Below are positions 4,730 to 17,324 of a stretch of DNA of 21,822 nt, one piece after another. Position 1 is the first letter of the stretch; the number at the start of each line of letters is the position of its first letter. Location of the stretch: positions 1 through 21,822 of IMG/VR virus record IMGVR_UViG_3300042691_003046, one strand, 5' to 3'. The DNA comes from a virus. The notes under the pieces are model-generated. The model worked only from the letters and a program-made list of their open reading frames with translations, ran no database searches and was not told where the DNA came from. The position numbers and the translations under genes were made by a program.

Positions 4730-4957
4730 ATGAAAAATGAAAAAGTGAATGCAATTTTAGAGTGGTCAGCCACGATAGTTACTATTGGTGCTGCAATTGC
4801 CACTGCACTCTCTATCGATCCATTGAACATCTATTTGTTCAATATCGGTTCTGTGTTGTGGTTAGTGTGGGCTGTAAGAATTAAGCGTGCAAGTTTAGTG
4901 GTAGTCAACGTAGGTTTGTTGGCTGTTTATGTTTATGGTTTGATTGTGAGGATTTGA
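4730..4957 (+). CDS. Small multi-TM membrane protein, probably leaderless
   Basis: A 75-residue protein with three hydrophobic stretches: residues 10-28, about 34-49 (LFNIGSVLWLVWAVRI), and 54-73 (LVVVNVGLLAVYVYGLIVRI). Basic residues between TMs 2 and 3 place that loop in the cytoplasm. The pattern faintly resembles PQ-loop or PnuC-type small transport proteins, but no diagnostic motif is present and I do not assign transport. It is the first gene after a strong host-type promoter and its ATG sits at the predicted +1, so the mRNA is likely leaderless. It heads an operon of small proteins that runs to about 7149. Confidence 0.75.
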   Translation: MKNEKVNAILEWSATIVTIGAAIATALSIDPLNIYLFNIGSVLWLVWAVRIKRASLVVVNVGLLAVYVYGLIVRI

Positions 4958-4958
4958 T

Positions 4959-5171
4959 ATGAGTAAAATGGCAGAGTTATCACTGGATATTGAAGAGTTG
5001 TTGGCAGAAGGTATGTCTCCAAAGTTTATCGCAGTGACACTGAATTGTCCGATTGAAATGGTTTATGATACCATTGAAAATCTTGAGTGTTTGGAATTAG
5101 AAAAGCAGTTTGAAATGATGTCGTATGCCGATGAGATGGCAAATGACGATGCACAATATTATGGAGCTTAA
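4959..5171 (+). CDS. Small acidic protein with HTH-like segment
   Basis: A 70-residue acidic protein, one base after the previous stop, with GAGGA upstream. Residues 18-38 (EGMSPKFIAVTLNCPIEMVY) read like a helix-turn-helix of the kind found in small sigma- or resolvase-like DNA-binding proteins, but the rest of the protein is very acidic, which argues against simple DNA binding. Conserved-looking small phage protein; function unknown. Confidence 0.7.
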   Translation: MSKMAELSLDIEELLAEGMSPKFIAVTLNCPIEMVYDTIENLECLELEKQFEMMSYADEMANDDAQYYGA

Positions 5172-12014: not shown

Positions 12015-12572
12015 ATGAAAGAAAGAGAATATATTAACAGAACAGTGGGTAGTTTTTGGCCACGATGGGTTCGAGAGAATTATTTTGCAGTAGAACCAAA
12101 CTCAACAGAGCCATCTGAAGTATCAATGACTATTGAAAATAAATGGAAAGTTTATTATTTCTATCCAAAAGACTTTACATTTGTATGTCCAACTGAGATT
12201 GTAGATTTTGATAATCTGATTCCAGAGTTTGAAAAACTTAATGCTGTTGTGTTTGGAATTTCTCCAGATAACGAATATTGTAAGTTGGCATGGAAGCAAT
12301 CAAATCCTCTATTGACTAATTTGCAACATACACTGCTTGTAGATTCTGGTAATGAGTTGGCAAAGGAATGTGGCATTGCAACATCAGATGGAACTCCACT
12401 CCGTGCTACGTTTATTGTTGATCCACAAGATGAGGTTCAGCACGTCAGCATAAACAATCACAATGTCGGTAGAAATGCAGCAGAGATTCTACGAATTCTT
12501 GATGCGTGTCAAAAAGGTAGTGAAGGTGGATTATGCCCAGCCAACCGACAAGTTGGTGGCGAAACATTATAA
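12015..12572 (+). CDS. ahpC: AhpC-type 2-Cys peroxiredoxin
   Basis: A 185-residue thioredoxin-fold peroxidase. The active site FYPKDFTFVCPTEI is complete: P51, T55, peroxidatic C58, with catalytic R130 in LRATFIVDP. The resolving Cys is C174 in GGLCPANR, near the C-terminus, as in typical 2-Cys AhpC/Prx1 enzymes. It reduces hydrogen peroxide and organic hydroperoxides. No reductase (AhpF, AhpD, thioredoxin) lies nearby, so it would rely on host reductants. RBS AAGGGA. Adjacent to the 2OG oxygenase, whose chemistry consumes oxygen; a joint role in redox defence of the infected cell is inference. Confidence 0.92.
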   Translation: MKEREYINRTVGSFWPRWVRENYFAVEPNSTEPSEVSMTIENKWKVYYFYPKDFTFVCPTEIVDFDNLIPEFEKLNAVVFGISPDNEYCKLAWKQSNPLLTNLQHTLLVDSGNELAKECGIATSDGTPLRATFIVDPQDEVQHVSINNHNVGRNAAEILRILDACQKGSEGGLCPANRQVGGETL

Positions 12573-12576
12573 TTGT

Positions 12577-12584
12577 CCTAAATA
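12577..12584 (+). promoter_or_regulatory. T4-type late promoter motif CCTAAATA
   Basis: CCTAAATA in the context TCCTAAATAAA, identical to the element at 656-666. T4 spacing puts the RNA start near 12590, just before tandem ATGs at 12592 and 12595. Confidence 0.6.
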
Positions 12585-12591
12585 AATTACT

Positions 12592-12684
12592 ATGATGAAA
12601 CATATACCTACAATTAGAACTTCCAATCCACTATTATGTGGCTTGGAAAACTCATACCTAGATCTAGGAGTGAGGGTTAGCTGA
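12592..12684 (+). CDS. Possible 30-residue leaderless ORF
   Basis: Tandem ATG codons (12592, 12595) two to five bases after the predicted late start open a 30-codon frame with an internal NPLLCGLENSYLDLG stretch. No Shine-Dalgarno. It runs through hairpin P1, so the same segment could be RNA structure rather than coding. I give it low weight. Confidence 0.2.
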   Translation: MMKHIPTIRTSNPLLCGLENSYLDLGVRVS

Positions 12685-12707
12685 TAGGTAATTATACTTT
12701 TCATCAG

Positions 12708-12742
12708 CCCTCGCAGAGAAATCTCCGAGGGTTTTTTGTTTT
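12708..12742 (+). terminator. Rho-independent terminator
   Basis: CCCTCG (12708-12713) pairs with CGAGGG (12726-12731); an inner GAGA/TCTC extends the stem. A T-run follows (12732-12737, then G and more T). Confidence 0.9.
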
Positions 12743-12810: not shown

Positions 12811-12885
12811 GTGCCAATAGCTTAATGGTAAAGCGTCCGACTCATAATCGGTTGAGTCTAAGTTCAATTCTTAGTTGGCACACCA
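12811..12885 (+). tRNA. tRNA-CAT (Ile2 or elongator Met)
   Basis: Acceptor GTGCCAA/TTGGCAC, D-stem GCTT/AAGC, anticodon loop CTCATAA (CAT), T-arm CTAAG/CTTAG, encoded CCA. Acceptor pairs C4-G69 and C5-G68 match those reported as determinants for the lysidine synthetase TilS on tRNA-Ile2, so it may read AUA. The pair 27:43 is a U-U mismatch. Confidence 0.92.
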
Positions 12886-12914
12886 TTGACTTGCAAGATT
12901 GTTTGATGTATAAT
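12886..12914 (+). promoter_or_regulatory. Promoter inside the tRNA array
   Basis: TTGACT (12886-12891), 17-base spacer, TATAAT (12909-12914). Expected start near 12921, three bases before tRNA-Leu. The -35 starts immediately after the CCA of the first tRNA. Confidence 0.8.
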
Positions 12915-12923
12915 AGAGTTAAT

Positions 12924-13008
12924 GCGACTGTGGTGAAATAGGTAGACACAAGAGACTTAAAATCTCTCGCTGCAGAGCATACCAGTTCGATTCTGGTCAG
13001 TCGCACCA
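12924..13008 (+). tRNA. tRNA-Leu (TAA)
   Basis: Acceptor GCGACTG/CAGTCGC, anticodon loop CTTAAAA, long variable arm typical of type II tRNAs, encoded CCA. Confidence 0.95.
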
Positions 13009-13014
13009 AGTTTA

Positions 13015-13102
13015 GGAAGAGTGGGTGAGTGGTTTAAACCAGCAGTCTTGAAAACTGCCGATGTGAAAGCATCCCTGAGTTCGAATCTCAGTTCTTCCGC
13101 CA
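13015..13102 (+). tRNA. tRNA-Ser (TGA)
   Basis: Acceptor starts GGAAGA and closes with TCTTCC, anticodon loop CTTGAAA, extra arm GATGTGAAAGCATC, encoded CCA with discriminator G. Confidence 0.95.
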
Positions 13103-13107
13103 GTTAT

Positions 13108-13182
13108 GTTGAGCATGTTGTAGTGGTAGCAACACAGATTGTGATTCTGTTAGTATGGGTTCGATTCCCATTGCTCAACCCA
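13108..13182 (+). tRNA. tRNA-His (GTG)
   Basis: Acceptor TTGAGCA/TGCTCAA with an extra encoded G at -1 (13108) opposite C73, the tRNA-His hallmark. Anticodon loop TTGTGAT. Encoded CCA. Confidence 0.95.
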
Positions 13183-13184
13183 AT

Positions 13185-13259
13185 ACGGCATTAGTATAAT
13201 GGATAATACAGTAGGCTTCTACCCTACGAATGTGGGTTCGATTCCTGCATGCCGTGCCA
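13185..13259 (+). tRNA. tRNA-Arg (TCT)
   Basis: Acceptor ACGGCAT/ATGCCGT, anticodon stem GTAGG/CCTAC with loop CTTCTAC, discriminator G, encoded CCA. Reads AGA/AGG. Confidence 0.95.
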
Positions 13260-13265
13260 GATTAT

Positions 13266-13342
13266 GTGGGTGTGCTACTGAATGGTTAGGTGACGGATTG
13301 CAAATCCGTATTATGCAGGTTCGATCCCTGTCACCCACTCCA
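13266..13342 (+). tRNA. tRNA-Cys (GCA)
   Basis: Acceptor GTGGGTG/CACCCAC, anticodon loop TTGCAAA, discriminator T as usual for tRNA-Cys, encoded CCA. Confidence 0.95.
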
Positions 13343-13350
13343 GATAATGG

Positions 13351-13379
13351 TTGTCTTGCAAAGTTAGTTGATGTATAAT
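13351..13379 (+). promoter_or_regulatory. Second promoter inside the tRNA array
   Basis: TTGTCT (13351-13356), 17-base spacer, TATAAT (13374-13379). It shares TTGATGTATAATAG with the promoter at 12886 apart from the distal part. Expected start near 13386, at the beginning of the structured RNA. Confidence 0.8.
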
Positions 13380-13385
13380 AGTAGT

Positions 13386-13496
13386 TCTTCTGAAATCCTC
13401 TCTAAGTCTTTAGTCGAAACTGAAGCGTGAGGTTGGGAAAAGATCCCATGCAAGTGCGCAAGGTTTGGTAGTTTTCCTGTACAATAAAAACTACCT
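13386..13496 (+). ncRNA. Structured non-tRNA RNA within the tRNA array
   Basis: About 110 bases directly downstream of a promoter hold no tRNA and no credible ORF but four potential stems: CCTC/GAGG enclosing CTTTAGT/ACTGAAG with a CGAA loop; TGGGA/TCCCA with loop AAAGA; and a 9-bp perfect hairpin GGTAGTTTT (13467-13475) with AAAACTACC (13487-13495) three bases before tRNA-Glu. T4 also has two extra stable RNAs (C and D) among its tRNAs. I find no match to tmRNA, RNase P RNA, 4.5S RNA or known ribozyme cores. Confidence 0.55.
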
Positions 13497-13498
13497 AT

Positions 13499-13573
13499 GC
13501 ACGATTCGTCTATCGGTTAGGACACTGCCCTTTCACGGCAGGAAGAGGAGTTCGATTCTCCTATCGTGTACCA
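13499..13573 (+). tRNA. tRNA-Glu (TTC)
   Basis: Acceptor GCACGAT/ATCGTGT, anticodon stem CTGCC/GGCAG with loop CTTTCAC, encoded CCA. Confidence 0.95.
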
Positions 13574-13579
13574 AATTTC

Positions 13580-13664
13580 GGAGAAGAAGCATCAATGGTG
13601 ATGCAGTGGACTGTAAATCCGCCACCTTCGGGTACGACTGGTTCGATCCCAGTATTCTCCACCA
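13580..13664 (+). tRNA. tRNA-Tyr (GTA)
   Basis: Acceptor GGAGAA/TTCTCC, anticodon stem GTGGA/TCCGC with loop CTGTAAA, long variable arm, encoded CCA. Confidence 0.95.
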
Positions 13665-13665
13665 T

Positions 13666-13739
13666 GCGGGATTAGTTTAATGGTAAAACTACAGATTTCC
13701 AATCTGTTGTTGTCAGTTCGATTCTGACATTCCGCTCCA
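13666..13739 (+). tRNA. tRNA-Gly (TCC)
   Basis: Acceptor GCGGGAT/ATTCCGC, anticodon stem ACAGA/TCTGT with loop TTTCCAA, discriminator T, encoded CCA. Only one base separates it from tRNA-Tyr. Confidence 0.95.
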
Positions 13740-13746
13740 AGTTTTT

Positions 13747-13821
13747 GGCTCGTTAGTATAATGGTTATTACAGCGGATTGTCTATCCGCTTATGGGAGTT
13801 CGATTCTCCCACGAGTCGCCA
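13747..13821 (+). tRNA. tRNA-Asp (GTC)
   Basis: Acceptor GGCTCGT/ACGAGTC, anticodon stem GCGGA/TCCGC with loop TTGTCTA, discriminator G, encoded CCA. Confidence 0.95.
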
Positions 13822-13826
13822 GTTAT

Positions 13827-13900
13827 AGCGGATTAGAGAAACGGTATCTCGGAAGTTTCATATGCTTCAGTTGTTGGTTCGATTCCAGCATCCGCAACCA
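13827..13900 (+). tRNA. tRNA-Met (CAT) with initiator-like features
   Basis: Acceptor AGCGGAT against ATCCGCA leaves an unpaired A1-A72. D-stem GAGA/TCTC gives A11-U24. Anticodon stem GAAGT/GCTTC, loop TTCATAT (CAT), encoded CCA. A 1-72 mismatch and A11-U24 are marks of bacterial initiator tRNA, but the three G-C pairs of the initiator anticodon stem are missing. Confidence 0.9.
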
Positions 13901-13908
13901 AAGTTTAT

Positions 13909-13986
13909 CGGAGATTGGGAAAGTCTGGTTAATCCGTCTGCTTTGGGAGCAGAAGACCGAAGGTTCGAATCCTTCATCTCCGACCA
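13909..13986 (+). tRNA. tRNA-Pro (TGG)
   Basis: Acceptor CGGAGAT/ATCTCCG with C1-G72 typical of tRNA-Pro, anticodon stem TCTGC/GCAGA with loop TTTGGGA, encoded CCA. Confidence 0.95.
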
Positions 13987-13998
13987 AGATAAGTAGAA

Positions 13999-14082
13999 GC
14001 GAGAGTGGTGTAATGGTAGCCACGCTGGTCTTAGAAGCCAGTGACGCAAGTCGTGAGAGTTCGAGTCTCTCCTCTCGCACCA
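13999..14082 (+). tRNA. tRNA-Leu (TAG)
   Basis: Acceptor GCGAGAG/CTCTCGC, anticodon stem CTGGT/GCCAG with loop CTTAGAA, long variable arm, encoded CCA. Second Leu tRNA of the array. Confidence 0.95.
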
Positions 14083-14109
14083 AATAACAATAACTGAAAG
14101 AGGTTAATC

Positions 14110-14286
14110 ATGGCAACAAAAGGTGGTAATCAAAAAACACGTAAAGCAGATCCAATGCGTACTAAGAATGGTAAAGAACGTCTTGGTCCACTAAATGTGG
14201 CACAGTTGACTGCTCTCAAAGAGAGAACATCTAAAAAGAAAATAGTTGCCAAGATTCAAAGAGAAATTGATCGTAAGTCAAAGTAA
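14110..14286 (+). CDS. Small basic protein inside the tRNA array
   Basis: An AGAGG RBS precedes the ATG. The 58-residue product is strongly basic: MATKGGNQKTRKADPMRTKN, then KERLGPLNVAQLTALKE and a Lys/Arg-rich helical end. The K-x-G-K-x-R-LGPLNV-x-QL signature recurs in very small phage proteins, as far as I remember, with K-x-x-K-I-x-R at the C-terminus. It could bind RNA or DNA; its place among tRNAs is suggestive but not evidence. Nothing else is known to me. Confidence 0.75.
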   Translation: MATKGGNQKTRKADPMRTKNGKERLGPLNVAQLTALKERTSKKKIVAKIQREIDRKSK

Positions 14287-14293
14287 ACAATAT

Positions 14294-14369
14294 TCCGCAG
14301 TAGCTCAGTCGGTAGAGTAGATGACTGTTAATCATTTGGTCGGTGGTTCGAGCCCACCCTGTGGAGCCA
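14294..14369 (+). tRNA. tRNA-Asn (GTT)
   Basis: Acceptor TCCGCAG/CTGTGGA, anticodon stem GATGA/TCATT with loop CTGTTAA, discriminator G, encoded CCA. Confidence 0.95.
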
Positions 14370-14374
14370 GTATT

Positions 14375-14450
14375 GCCCTTTTAGCTCATCTGGTAGAGCA
14401 ACTGATTTGTAATCAGTAGGTGGTCTGTTCGAGTCGGACAAGGGGCACCA
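14375..14450 (+). tRNA. tRNA-Thr (TGT)
   Basis: Acceptor GCCCTTT/AAGGGGC, anticodon stem ACTGA/TCAGT with loop TTTGTAA, T-arm GTCTG/CGGAC, encoded CCA. Last tRNA of the array. Confidence 0.95.
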
Positions 14451-15598: not shown

Positions 15599-16390
15599 AT
15601 GCTTAAAACATACCGCACAATCTTTATCTCCGATGTTCATCTTGGCACTCGTGACTGCAAGGCAGAACAGCTGAATAACTTTCTGAAGCACAATACCTGT
15701 GATACTCTCTATCTTGTTGGAGATATCATCGATGCTTGGAAAATTAAACAAAACAAGTGGAAATGGAAACAATCCCACACCAACGTAGTTCGTCGTGTAC
15801 TTGGCCATGCAAAACGAGATACAAGAGTGGTTTATGTGGCTGGTAATCACGATGAGTTTTTAAGACCAATGATACCCTATGGATTTTCCTTTGGTCTAGT
15901 TGAGATTCACAATCAAACTGAACACATTGGTGTGGATGGAAAGAAATATCTGGTTACTCATGGAGATCTGTTTGATGGAATTACTCGACTGGCTCCATGG
16001 TTGGCATTTCTTGGCGATAAGTTATATGATCTAGTCCTCGACTGGAACTCTCGTTTTAACTGGATTCGACATAAGCTGGGTTTTGGATACTGGTCACTGA
16101 GTAAATACCTAAAGAATAAGGTAAAGAAAGCCAGTGATTTTATGTTTCAGTTCGAAAGGAATCTGGCATCATATTGCAAGAAACGTGGTTATGATGGTGT
16201 AATCTGCGGACACATACATCATGCGGAGATAAAAGAAATCGATGGTGTAGCATATATGAACGATGGCGACTGGGTAGAATCAATGACTGCTCTGGTTGAA
16301 CATCATGATGGTCGTTGGGAAATTATAACATGGACGAAAACAAGTGATAAAAATACTGATAGTGACGGACAATCTACCAGACCAGATTAA
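15599..16390 (+). CDS. plcP: PlcP-like metallophosphoesterase (LpxH/COG2908 family)
   Basis: A 263-residue calcineurin-like phosphoesterase with all metal motifs: SDVHLG (D12, H14), VGDIIDAW (D42), GNHDE (N83, H84), THGD (H121) and GHIHHA (H205, H207). The full pattern, including FNWIRHKLG, YWSLSKYLK and NDGDWVES near the end, is that of proteobacterial proteins usually annotated UDP-2,3-diacylglucosamine diphosphatase. Members of this group in rhizobia and marine bacteria have been shown to be PlcP, a phospholipase C acting on membrane phospholipids during phosphate starvation. The following overlapping gene is an Agt-like glycosyltransferase, the usual partner of PlcP. A true LpxH role in lipid A synthesis is the alternative. 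The last 15 residues, where the next gene overlaps, are low in complexity. Confidence 0.88.
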   Translation: MLKTYRTIFISDVHLGTRDCKAEQLNNFLKHNTCDTLYLVGDIIDAWKIKQNKWKWKQSHTNVVRRVLGHAKRDTRVVYVAGNHDEFLRPMIPYGFSFGLVEIHNQTEHIGVDGKKYLVTHGDLFDGITRLAPWLAFLGDKLYDLVLDWNSRFNWIRHKLGFGYWSLSKYLKNKVKKASDFMFQFERNLASYCKKRGYDGVICGHIHHAEIKEIDGVAYMNDGDWVESMTALVEHHDGRWEIITWTKTSDKNTDSDGQSTRPD

Positions 16391-17324
16391 TGGTGTCGTT
16401 ACCACGTTCAAAAATCTGGAAGATTACGCTAATCGTGATGGGTATAGCATTGTTTATCTTGATCCCAGGAAGTTCCATCATTTTAATGCTGTGGGCTATC
16501 CTGAAGTTAAGATCTCAATCCCCATTGGTATTGGTAAAGCGATTGAAGCGATACATGCGGATCATATTCACATCGCCACAGAAGGTCCAATAGGTCTCGC
16601 TGCACGACTATATCTGGATCGAAAGAAGATACGCTACAACACTAGCTATCATACAAAATTCCCCGAGTTTCTAAAACAAATCTATGGCATTCCAATGTCA
16701 TGGACGTATCGCTATGTTCGCTGGTTTCATAAGCACTCTGGAATTGTACTGACCACCACAAAGACCATGGTCAATGACCTAAGATCCAATGGATTCGATG
16801 GTAATATTATTCCATGGACTCGTGGTGTCAATCGTGCTAATCTACATCCCAATCAATCAAGAACTGAGAGTAAGATTCCACGTGTTCTTTACGTTGGTCG
16901 TGTGTCAAAAGAAAAGAATCTAGACGCACTCTGCAAACTCACTGATTATCATATTCGAATTGTTGGTGATGGTCCAGATCGATCTAGACTAGAGAAAACC
17001 TATCCTCACGTAAAGTTTCTGGGCTATAAGTCTGGCACTGAACTTGCCAATGAATATCACAGTGCCGATGTATTTGCATTCCCATCCAAGACCGATACCT
17101 TTGGAATCGTTATTATTGAAGCACTCTCACTGGGTACACCAGTTGCTGCATATCCTGTTCCTGGACCAATTGACATACTTACTCCAGAGAATGGCATAAT
17201 GGATAACGATCTCAAAACAGCTATTAATAGTGCTCTATCTCTTCCTAGGGAAAGGGTGAAAAAATCATCCGAAGTCTGGACATGGGAAGAATGCTGGAAC
17301 ATATTCAAACGGAATCTACAGTGA
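16344..17324 (+). CDS. agt: Agt-like GT4 glycosyltransferase
   Basis: A 326-residue GT-B enzyme of the SqdX/Agt/PimB-like GT4 group. The GTG start at 16344 gives the family N-terminus ILIVTDNLPDQINGVVTT; it overlaps the phosphoesterase by 47 bases. Visible signatures: HIATEGPIGLAAR (about 76-88), NTSYHTKFPEF, RWFHKHS, VGRVSKEKN (R186, K191) and DTFGIVIIEALSLGTPV (D251, E259) with the nucleotide-sugar EX7E-like site in which the first Glu is Asp, as in SqdX-like proteins. In marine bacteria Agt makes glucosyl- or glucuronosyl-diacylglycerol from the DAG released by PlcP. Sugar donor and acceptor cannot be read from sequence. Slightly short against the usual 350-400 residues. Confidence 0.88.
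   Translation: MIKILIVTDNLPDQINGVVTTFKNLEDYANRDGYSIVYLDPRKFHHFNAVGYPEVKISIPIGIGKAIEAIHADHIHIATEGPIGLAARLYLDRKKIRYNTSYHTKFPEFLKQIYGIPMSWTYRYVRWFHKHSGIVLTTTKTMVNDLRSNGFDGNIIPWTRGVNRANLHPNQSRTESKIPRVLYVGRVSKEKNLDALCKLTDYHIRIVGDGPDRSRLEKTYPHVKFLGYKSGTELANEYHSADVFAFPSKTDTFGIVIIEALSLGTPVAAYPVPGPIDILTPENGIMDNDLKTAINSALSLPRERVKKSSEVWTWEECWNIFKRNLQ

Follow-up and report, generated by a model that had tools for sequence, protein, structure and literature searches.

Comparison with related phage contigs indicates that the segment between tRNA-Cys and tRNA-Glu of a 21,822-base IMG/VR contig (IMGVR_UViG_3300042691_003046; the whole stretch of DNA analyzed, hereafter the window) is a genuine, new and lineage-restricted family of phage leader RNAs, the function of which can only be inferred. 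We assign it to a new RNA family, one of the options offered by the first-pass annotation of this locus, because it has a conserved core, covarying stems and a constant genomic context and lacks a match in Rfam. Its significance derives from its relatives and not from the fold of one sequence. Little is known about the transcription and regulation of the large, long untranslated tRNA arrays of phages, and transcriptomes can be searched for this new RNA family by its exact consensus. The features described below are collected in Table 1.

Promoter and leader of the tRNA-Glu unit

The phage is judged to be T4-like from its T4 RNase H-like exonuclease, dCMP deaminase, 2OG-Fe(II) oxygenase and AAA ATPase. 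The tRNA array of the window spans positions 12811-14450 and contains fourteen tRNAs predicted by ARAGORN, as well as an extra tRNA-Tyr (13580-13661) that was detected by Rfam only (35 bits) and missed by ARAGORN; a 31-nt part of this tRNA-Tyr is identical across at least ~120 viral contigs. Host-like phage genes for a peroxiredoxin-like protein, an LpxH-like metallophosphoesterase and a glycosyltransferase are found at 12015-12572 and 15599-17324, the LpxH and peroxiredoxin assignments being made by eye.

Between the end of tRNA-Cys at 13342 and the start of tRNA-Glu at 13499, neither ARAGORN nor Rfam detected a tRNA, and no ORF has a credible start. The putative promoter in this interval would start transcription at ~13384-13387, and an internal tRNA unit headed by tRNA-Glu is predicted, with positions 13386-13498 as its untranslated 5' leader, in agreement with the initial description of ~110 nt with their own promoter and free of tRNAs and ORFs. 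A short peptide, MQVRKVW, at 13448 was rejected as a coding product, as it has no ribosome site. A second internal promoter (TTGACT-17-TATAAT, 12886-12914), located directly before tRNA-Leu, shares 83% similarity with the region of the 13351 promoter, yet it is not followed by a structured leader.

Folded as a single sequence, the leader is not exceptional: the minimum free energy of 13383-13498 is -26.9, compared with -22.4 +/- 3.4 in shuffles (z = -1.32; 22/200 shuffles as good). Thus, the several hairpins reported at first are by themselves not above chance, although stems of the leader covary in relatives (see below), and the unremarkable single-sequence fold made the comparison with relatives necessary. 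Two small hairpins, at 13435-13447 and 13446-13463, are present only in the window and in contig L254; the latter segment is also kept as sequence in contigs L005, L057, and L060.

Table 1. Features of the leader, its tRNA unit and related arrays (window positions unless a contig is named)
Feature	Position	Strand	Remarks
Sigma70-type promoter TTGTCT-17-TATAAT	13351-13379	+	putative
Conserved core, 40-41 nt	13395-13434	+	consensus AUCCUCUCUAAGUCUUUACGUNAAGUCGGAAGCAUGAGGNN; at least 11 members
P1 helix	13397-13432	+	13397-13400 (CCUC) with 13429-13432 (GAGG); compensatory changes
Internal-loop strand UCUAAGU	13401-13407	+	invariant in all members listed, but part of the search pattern
P2 hairpin CUUUAGU-CGAA-ACUGAAG	13408-13425	+	candidate; lower stem invariant
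18-mer CCATGCAAGTGCGCAAGG	13446-13463	+	possible small hairpin; exact in L005, L057, L060, L058; diverged in L254
Pseudoknot helix	13461-13478	+	likely; AGG 13461-13463 with CCU 13476-13478 (P3 loop)
P3 hairpin	13467-13495	+	13467-13475 with 13487-13495; perfect 9-bp stem; no T-run
tRNA-Glu(TTC)	13499-13573	+	heads the downstream unit; follows the core in 11/11 members listed
Attenuator leader ORF (MMKHIPTIRTSNPLLCGLENSYLDLGVRVS)	12592-12684		
Antiterminator	12660-12722		fold -20.8 kcal/mol
Terminator	12690-12740		fold -15.6 kcal/mol
~200-270 nt element	L318 1906-2125; L005 ~4797-5062		also in L354, L330, L341, L386, L282 after tRNA-Glu
~120-150 nt elements	L005 5138-5283		also in L057, L060, L254 after tRNA-Glu

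Conserved core and 3' module in related phages

Viral contigs were scanned stepwise with a neighbor gene, the 18-mer, a tRNA-Tyr pattern, and a core pattern. The peroxiredoxin neighbor gene led to L005, the tRNA array of which has a matching 3' part, and the 18-mer led to L057 and L060; in these three contigs the 18-mer is located within tRNA arrays, 5' of tRNA-His. The tRNA-Tyr pattern, which is blind to the element, was used to collect phage tRNA arrays, and among those collected and searched the core is carried only by L254, with the entire element (88% identity), and by L206, where the copy is diverged, in each case shortly 5' of tRNA-Glu; the family is therefore lineage-restricted. Further members were obtained with the core pattern TCTAAGTCTTTAN{6,13}GAAGC, which fixes 17 core positions. 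The unfixed columns (UCCUC before, CGUNAAGUCG in the middle, and RUGAGG after) are nearly invariant in the tRNA-array matches and, among the matches listed, are shared by none of those outside arrays, and this contrast is an internal control for the pattern. The family has at least 11 members (the window, L206, L254, L282, L318, L330, L341, L354, L370, L386, and L387, with L284 duplicating L282 and counted once), and others probably exist.

The order promoter, core, tRNA-Glu is found in 11/11 members listed, while the neighboring genes vary, with tRNA-Cys or tRNA-Leu upstream and different genes downstream; in L354 a coding region is inserted before the promoter. All 11 promoters (TTGACn/TTTACn/TTGTCT-17-TATAAT) are located 5' of the core, and shuffled upstream regions reach the promoter score in only 0-12 of 300 cases. 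In 10 of these members the core is located 18-35 nt past the -10 box; in L330 a small ORF is inserted between them, promoter and core being >120 nt apart. Between the core and the tRNA there are a few to ~80 nt of non-conserved sequence. Each contig, including one of 165.6 kb, has one copy. Diverged pairs share an identity of 0.86 in the core, 0.81 in tRNA-Glu and 0.61 in the 80 nt upstream, which suggests that the core is conserved about as well as tRNA-Glu, partly by construction as 17 positions were set by the search pattern.

A covariance model of the element (R1) scores 61-80 bits in members, whereas nothing else in the loci searched with it exceeds 18 bits. No match was found among 50,697 cultured-phage records, and in 274 genomes of one bacterial class R1 gave two 26-bit matches, about the number expected by chance, both of which look unrelated. 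A host-derived motif was likewise rejected: the 18-mer has nine matches in 84,980 genomes, about a chance number, in unrelated and mostly coding-like contexts.

The core is composed of P1, an internal loop and P2. P1 is supported by compensatory changes, C-G having become U-A at one pair in L254 and at a different one in L206 and L387; jointly with the lower part of P2, 98.9% of cells are paired vs. 96.0% in shuffles, with three double-change cells. The partner strand of the internal loop (13426-13428) reads CGU in the window and CAU in most members. P2, which in most relatives reads CUUUAC-GUNAA-GU(CG)GAAG, obtains little covariation support and is not proven, since its lower pairs never vary. 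A small ORF over the core was considered and discarded: one frame is open in several members, but both a start codon and a ribosome site are missing, and a 1-nt length change in the window copy also opposes it.

The 3' part of the leader is formed by P3, whose arms GGTAGTTTT (13467-13475) and AAAACTACC (13487-13495) confirm the perfect 9-bp stem noted just before tRNA-Glu, ending 3 nt from it. As originally observed, no T-run follows, and a role of P3 as a processing site rather than a terminator would fit this absence. Over nine sequences P3 is paired in 54/54 cells with eight double-change cells, and its covariation score is 0.57 vs. 0.21 in shuffles, with all slid controls far lower. The P3 loop and the bases upstream likely form an H-type pseudoknot, generally NNGG shortly 5' of P3 with CCNN in the loop, for which the comparative evidence is strong but not final: the third and fourth pairs covary in the nine sequences (the third being A-U, C-G, or U-A), and the permutation p is ~0.001, for a helix that was noticed before it was tested and in sequences that are related. 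In a count test with the two strands excised and joined by a fixed spacer, 7/500 shuffles reach the observed pairing (five distinct rows). The conservation of structure in relatives, proposed as a test by the first-pass annotation, was thus observed in P1, P3, and the pseudoknot.

The P3/pseudoknot part is missing in L318 and L354, where the core ends close to tRNA-Glu, and a different 78-nt stretch takes its place in L370 and L387, so that it is lost or replaced in 4/11 members listed. Conversely, it stands alone before tRNA-His in L005 (5287-5340), L057, and L060, with no promoter-core. Therefore, the 3' part and the promoter-core are separate modules.

The location of the core right after the promoter and its sequence conservation could also be expected of a DNA-level control site with an incidental RNA fold; however, the compensated pairs found in all three helices (P1, P3, pseudoknot) and the distant core of L330 make this very improbable. 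A degenerate tRNA or functionless spacer, to which the place within a tRNA array and the single-sequence z of only -1.3 might point, is hardly credible: the element receives no tRNA score with E allowed up to 10, is conserved at the level of tRNA-Glu and covaries. The degenerate tRNA that had been named in advance as a refuting outcome was thus not found.

Possible roles of the leader

We tentatively favor a cis-acting leader that affects how the untranslated tRNA operon is transcribed or processed, a reading that in its full form falls somewhat short of an even chance. The core would be transcribed first and would offer its invariant loop to a conserved partner, for which RNA polymerase or a Nus-type factor of the host is the most likely candidate; this contact would help the polymerase to read through the long untranslated tRNA block. 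The pseudoknot would keep leader and tRNA insulated from each other until the 5' end of tRNA-Glu is cut by RNase P; by analogy, the leader would work like the put and nut leaders. The transcription signals, conserved structure, and linkage are the sequence-based steps of this model, and the cis action on polymerase or processing is the step that we infer. The downstream tRNAs number up to 15 per unit, and in the members examined a search from the core to the last of them revealed no intrinsic terminator; a put- or nut-like leader would fit because of this and of the promoter-proximal place.

The cis leader is favored by the constant order of promoter, core, and tRNA-Glu in spite of differing neighbors, by the short distance from the -10 box in 10 of the 11 members, by the tRNA-Glu-like conservation of the core together with the covariation in P1, P3, and the pseudoknot, and by the HK022 putL RNA, which is likewise structured and found just after a promoter (PMC9378689). 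However, there is no terminator or Rho site in evidence that would need antitermination, the array promoter before tRNA-Leu has no such leader, the pseudoknot is missing or replaced in four members, and P2 does not covary while 17 core positions are fixed by the search pattern. A more specific version, in which the core binds the elongating host RNA polymerase as a protein-independent, put-like but unrelated antiterminator for phage tRNA operons, appears rather unlikely.

A dedicated ncRNA gene would likewise be compatible with the single copy per contig, even in 165.6 kb. The main rival, doubtful on its own but nearly as likely as the cis leader, is a stable trans-acting RNA that would start at ~13385 and obtain its 3' end from the RNase P cut at tRNA-Glu, with P3 and the pseudoknot guarding this end and the core loop binding a host or phage target. 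The 3' hairpin close to the tRNA in the window, the conservation of unpaired core sequence and the stable RNAs annotated without an assigned role in the tRNA cluster of T4 are consistent with such an RNA, whereas the element was never found apart from tRNA-Glu or with its own terminator, and its 3' part is lost or replaced in four members. The constant link to tRNA-Glu, as well as the related 3' hairpin/pseudoknot before tRNA-His, might instead reflect a leader whose sole role is to help tRNA-Glu mature or to stabilize the transcript (RNase E/P access, 5' protection). We consider this unlikely in view of the variable, non-conserved stretch between core and tRNA and of the other array tRNAs, which have no such leader.

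Attenuator-like leaders, other array elements and known systems

Many of these tRNA arrays are headed by an element similar to the Trp-operon attenuator (12545-12740 in the window), which consists of a promoter, an ORF of 24-51 codons, mutually exclusive antiterminator and terminator, and then the array. It is also found upstream of the first tRNA in L005, L154, L155, L156, L165, L182, L205, L206, L222, L246, L251, L254, L271, L318, L341, and L370. The short leader ORF ends within the 5' arm of the antiterminator, which overlaps the terminator. All 20 amino acids are present in ten of the 21 leader peptides (24-51 aa) and 18 or 19 in most others, with individual chance probabilities of mostly 0.004-0.06 for peptides several of which are related and hence not independent; the window peptide, in which 30 residues include 16/20 amino acids (P 0.32), is unremarkable when taken alone. 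This composition suggests that the attenuator may sense a shortage of any charged tRNA: a ribosome stalled at a codon short of its tRNA would leave the antiterminator free and the array on, whereas a ribosome reaching the stop codon would cover the antiterminator and the array would stay off. No description of such a tRNA-array attenuator was found in the literature searched, and it may be a more important lead than the leader RNA. Together, the promoter-bearing leader RNA and the array-head attenuator suggest dedicated RNA-based control of phage tRNA arrays.

Two further kinds of elements occur between tRNA genes of related arrays. One is a conserved element of ~200-270 nt with a long terminal stem, for which no Rfam match was found in L005. 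The other comprises structured elements of ~120-150 nt with perfect or near-perfect terminal inverted repeats, absent from the window; similar-looking elements are found in L206 (4660-4776) and L318 (2127-2247). In addition, ATCCCATGCAAGTGCGCAAGG is common to the window and L058 (6926-6947), between a gp32-like gene and its terminator. A gp32 3' UTR motif was rejected, as the 18-mer is absent from every region inspected downstream of related gp32 genes, and the L058 case may be due to chance.

The proposed Rfam search was carried out, and no family matched the element: at the gathering threshold of Rfam 15 the window contains only tRNAs, the best match of 13340-13510 at E up to 10 has E 3.4, with all matches far below gathering, and the best 150 of 185 matches in 10 relatives are all tRNA. 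A hammerhead ribozyme (CUGANGA...GAAA core, three stems) was rejected, as the match lacks the entire catalytic core and reaches 12.5 bits where gathering requires 48.5. In the open literature searched, no account of an element like that of the window was found, most subscription journals being outside that search. GOLLD RNA is a giant structured RNA associated with phages and tRNAs; it is far larger than the window element, which has no Rfam match to it.

The suggested analogy with T4 RNAs C and D (rnaC and rnaD, species 1 and 2 stable RNAs) holds loosely, as these are extra structured RNAs of similar size (139 and 119 nt) in a phage tRNA cluster, annotated without an assigned role; place, model, and alignment differ. 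They are sited after tRNA-Arg, whereas the window element follows a promoter and precedes tRNA-Glu, and rnaC, unlike the latter, ends in a hairpin similar to a tRNA T-arm. Unfiltered R1 scores at best 10.1 bits over the T4 tRNA region, not at rnaC or rnaD, and comparison with the two RNAs revealed no homology, the rnaD alignment being forced.

The boxA-boxB sites of rrn and nut leaders are alike in heading untranslated stable-RNA operons and in their pentaloop hairpin, which reads GUNAA in most members of the present family. BoxA is a single-stranded TGCTCTTTAACA followed by boxB; this order was not recognized by eye in the member alignment, where only the hexamer UCUUUA recalls boxA, inside the P2 stem. 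Put RNAs, with a consensus of ~70 nt and two stem-loops, act in antitermination via the zinc-binding domain of the RNA polymerase beta' subunit. In phage HK022, putL is a structured RNA just 3' of a phage promoter with two stem-loop domains (PMC9378689). The window element resembles putL and putR, by general layout only, as a structured, promoter-proximal RNA of two domains, placed near and downstream of its promoter (18-35 nt past the -10 box in 10/11 members listed); however, put precedes coding operons and the window element precedes tRNAs, and its second domain is a likely pseudoknot that is absent in some members.
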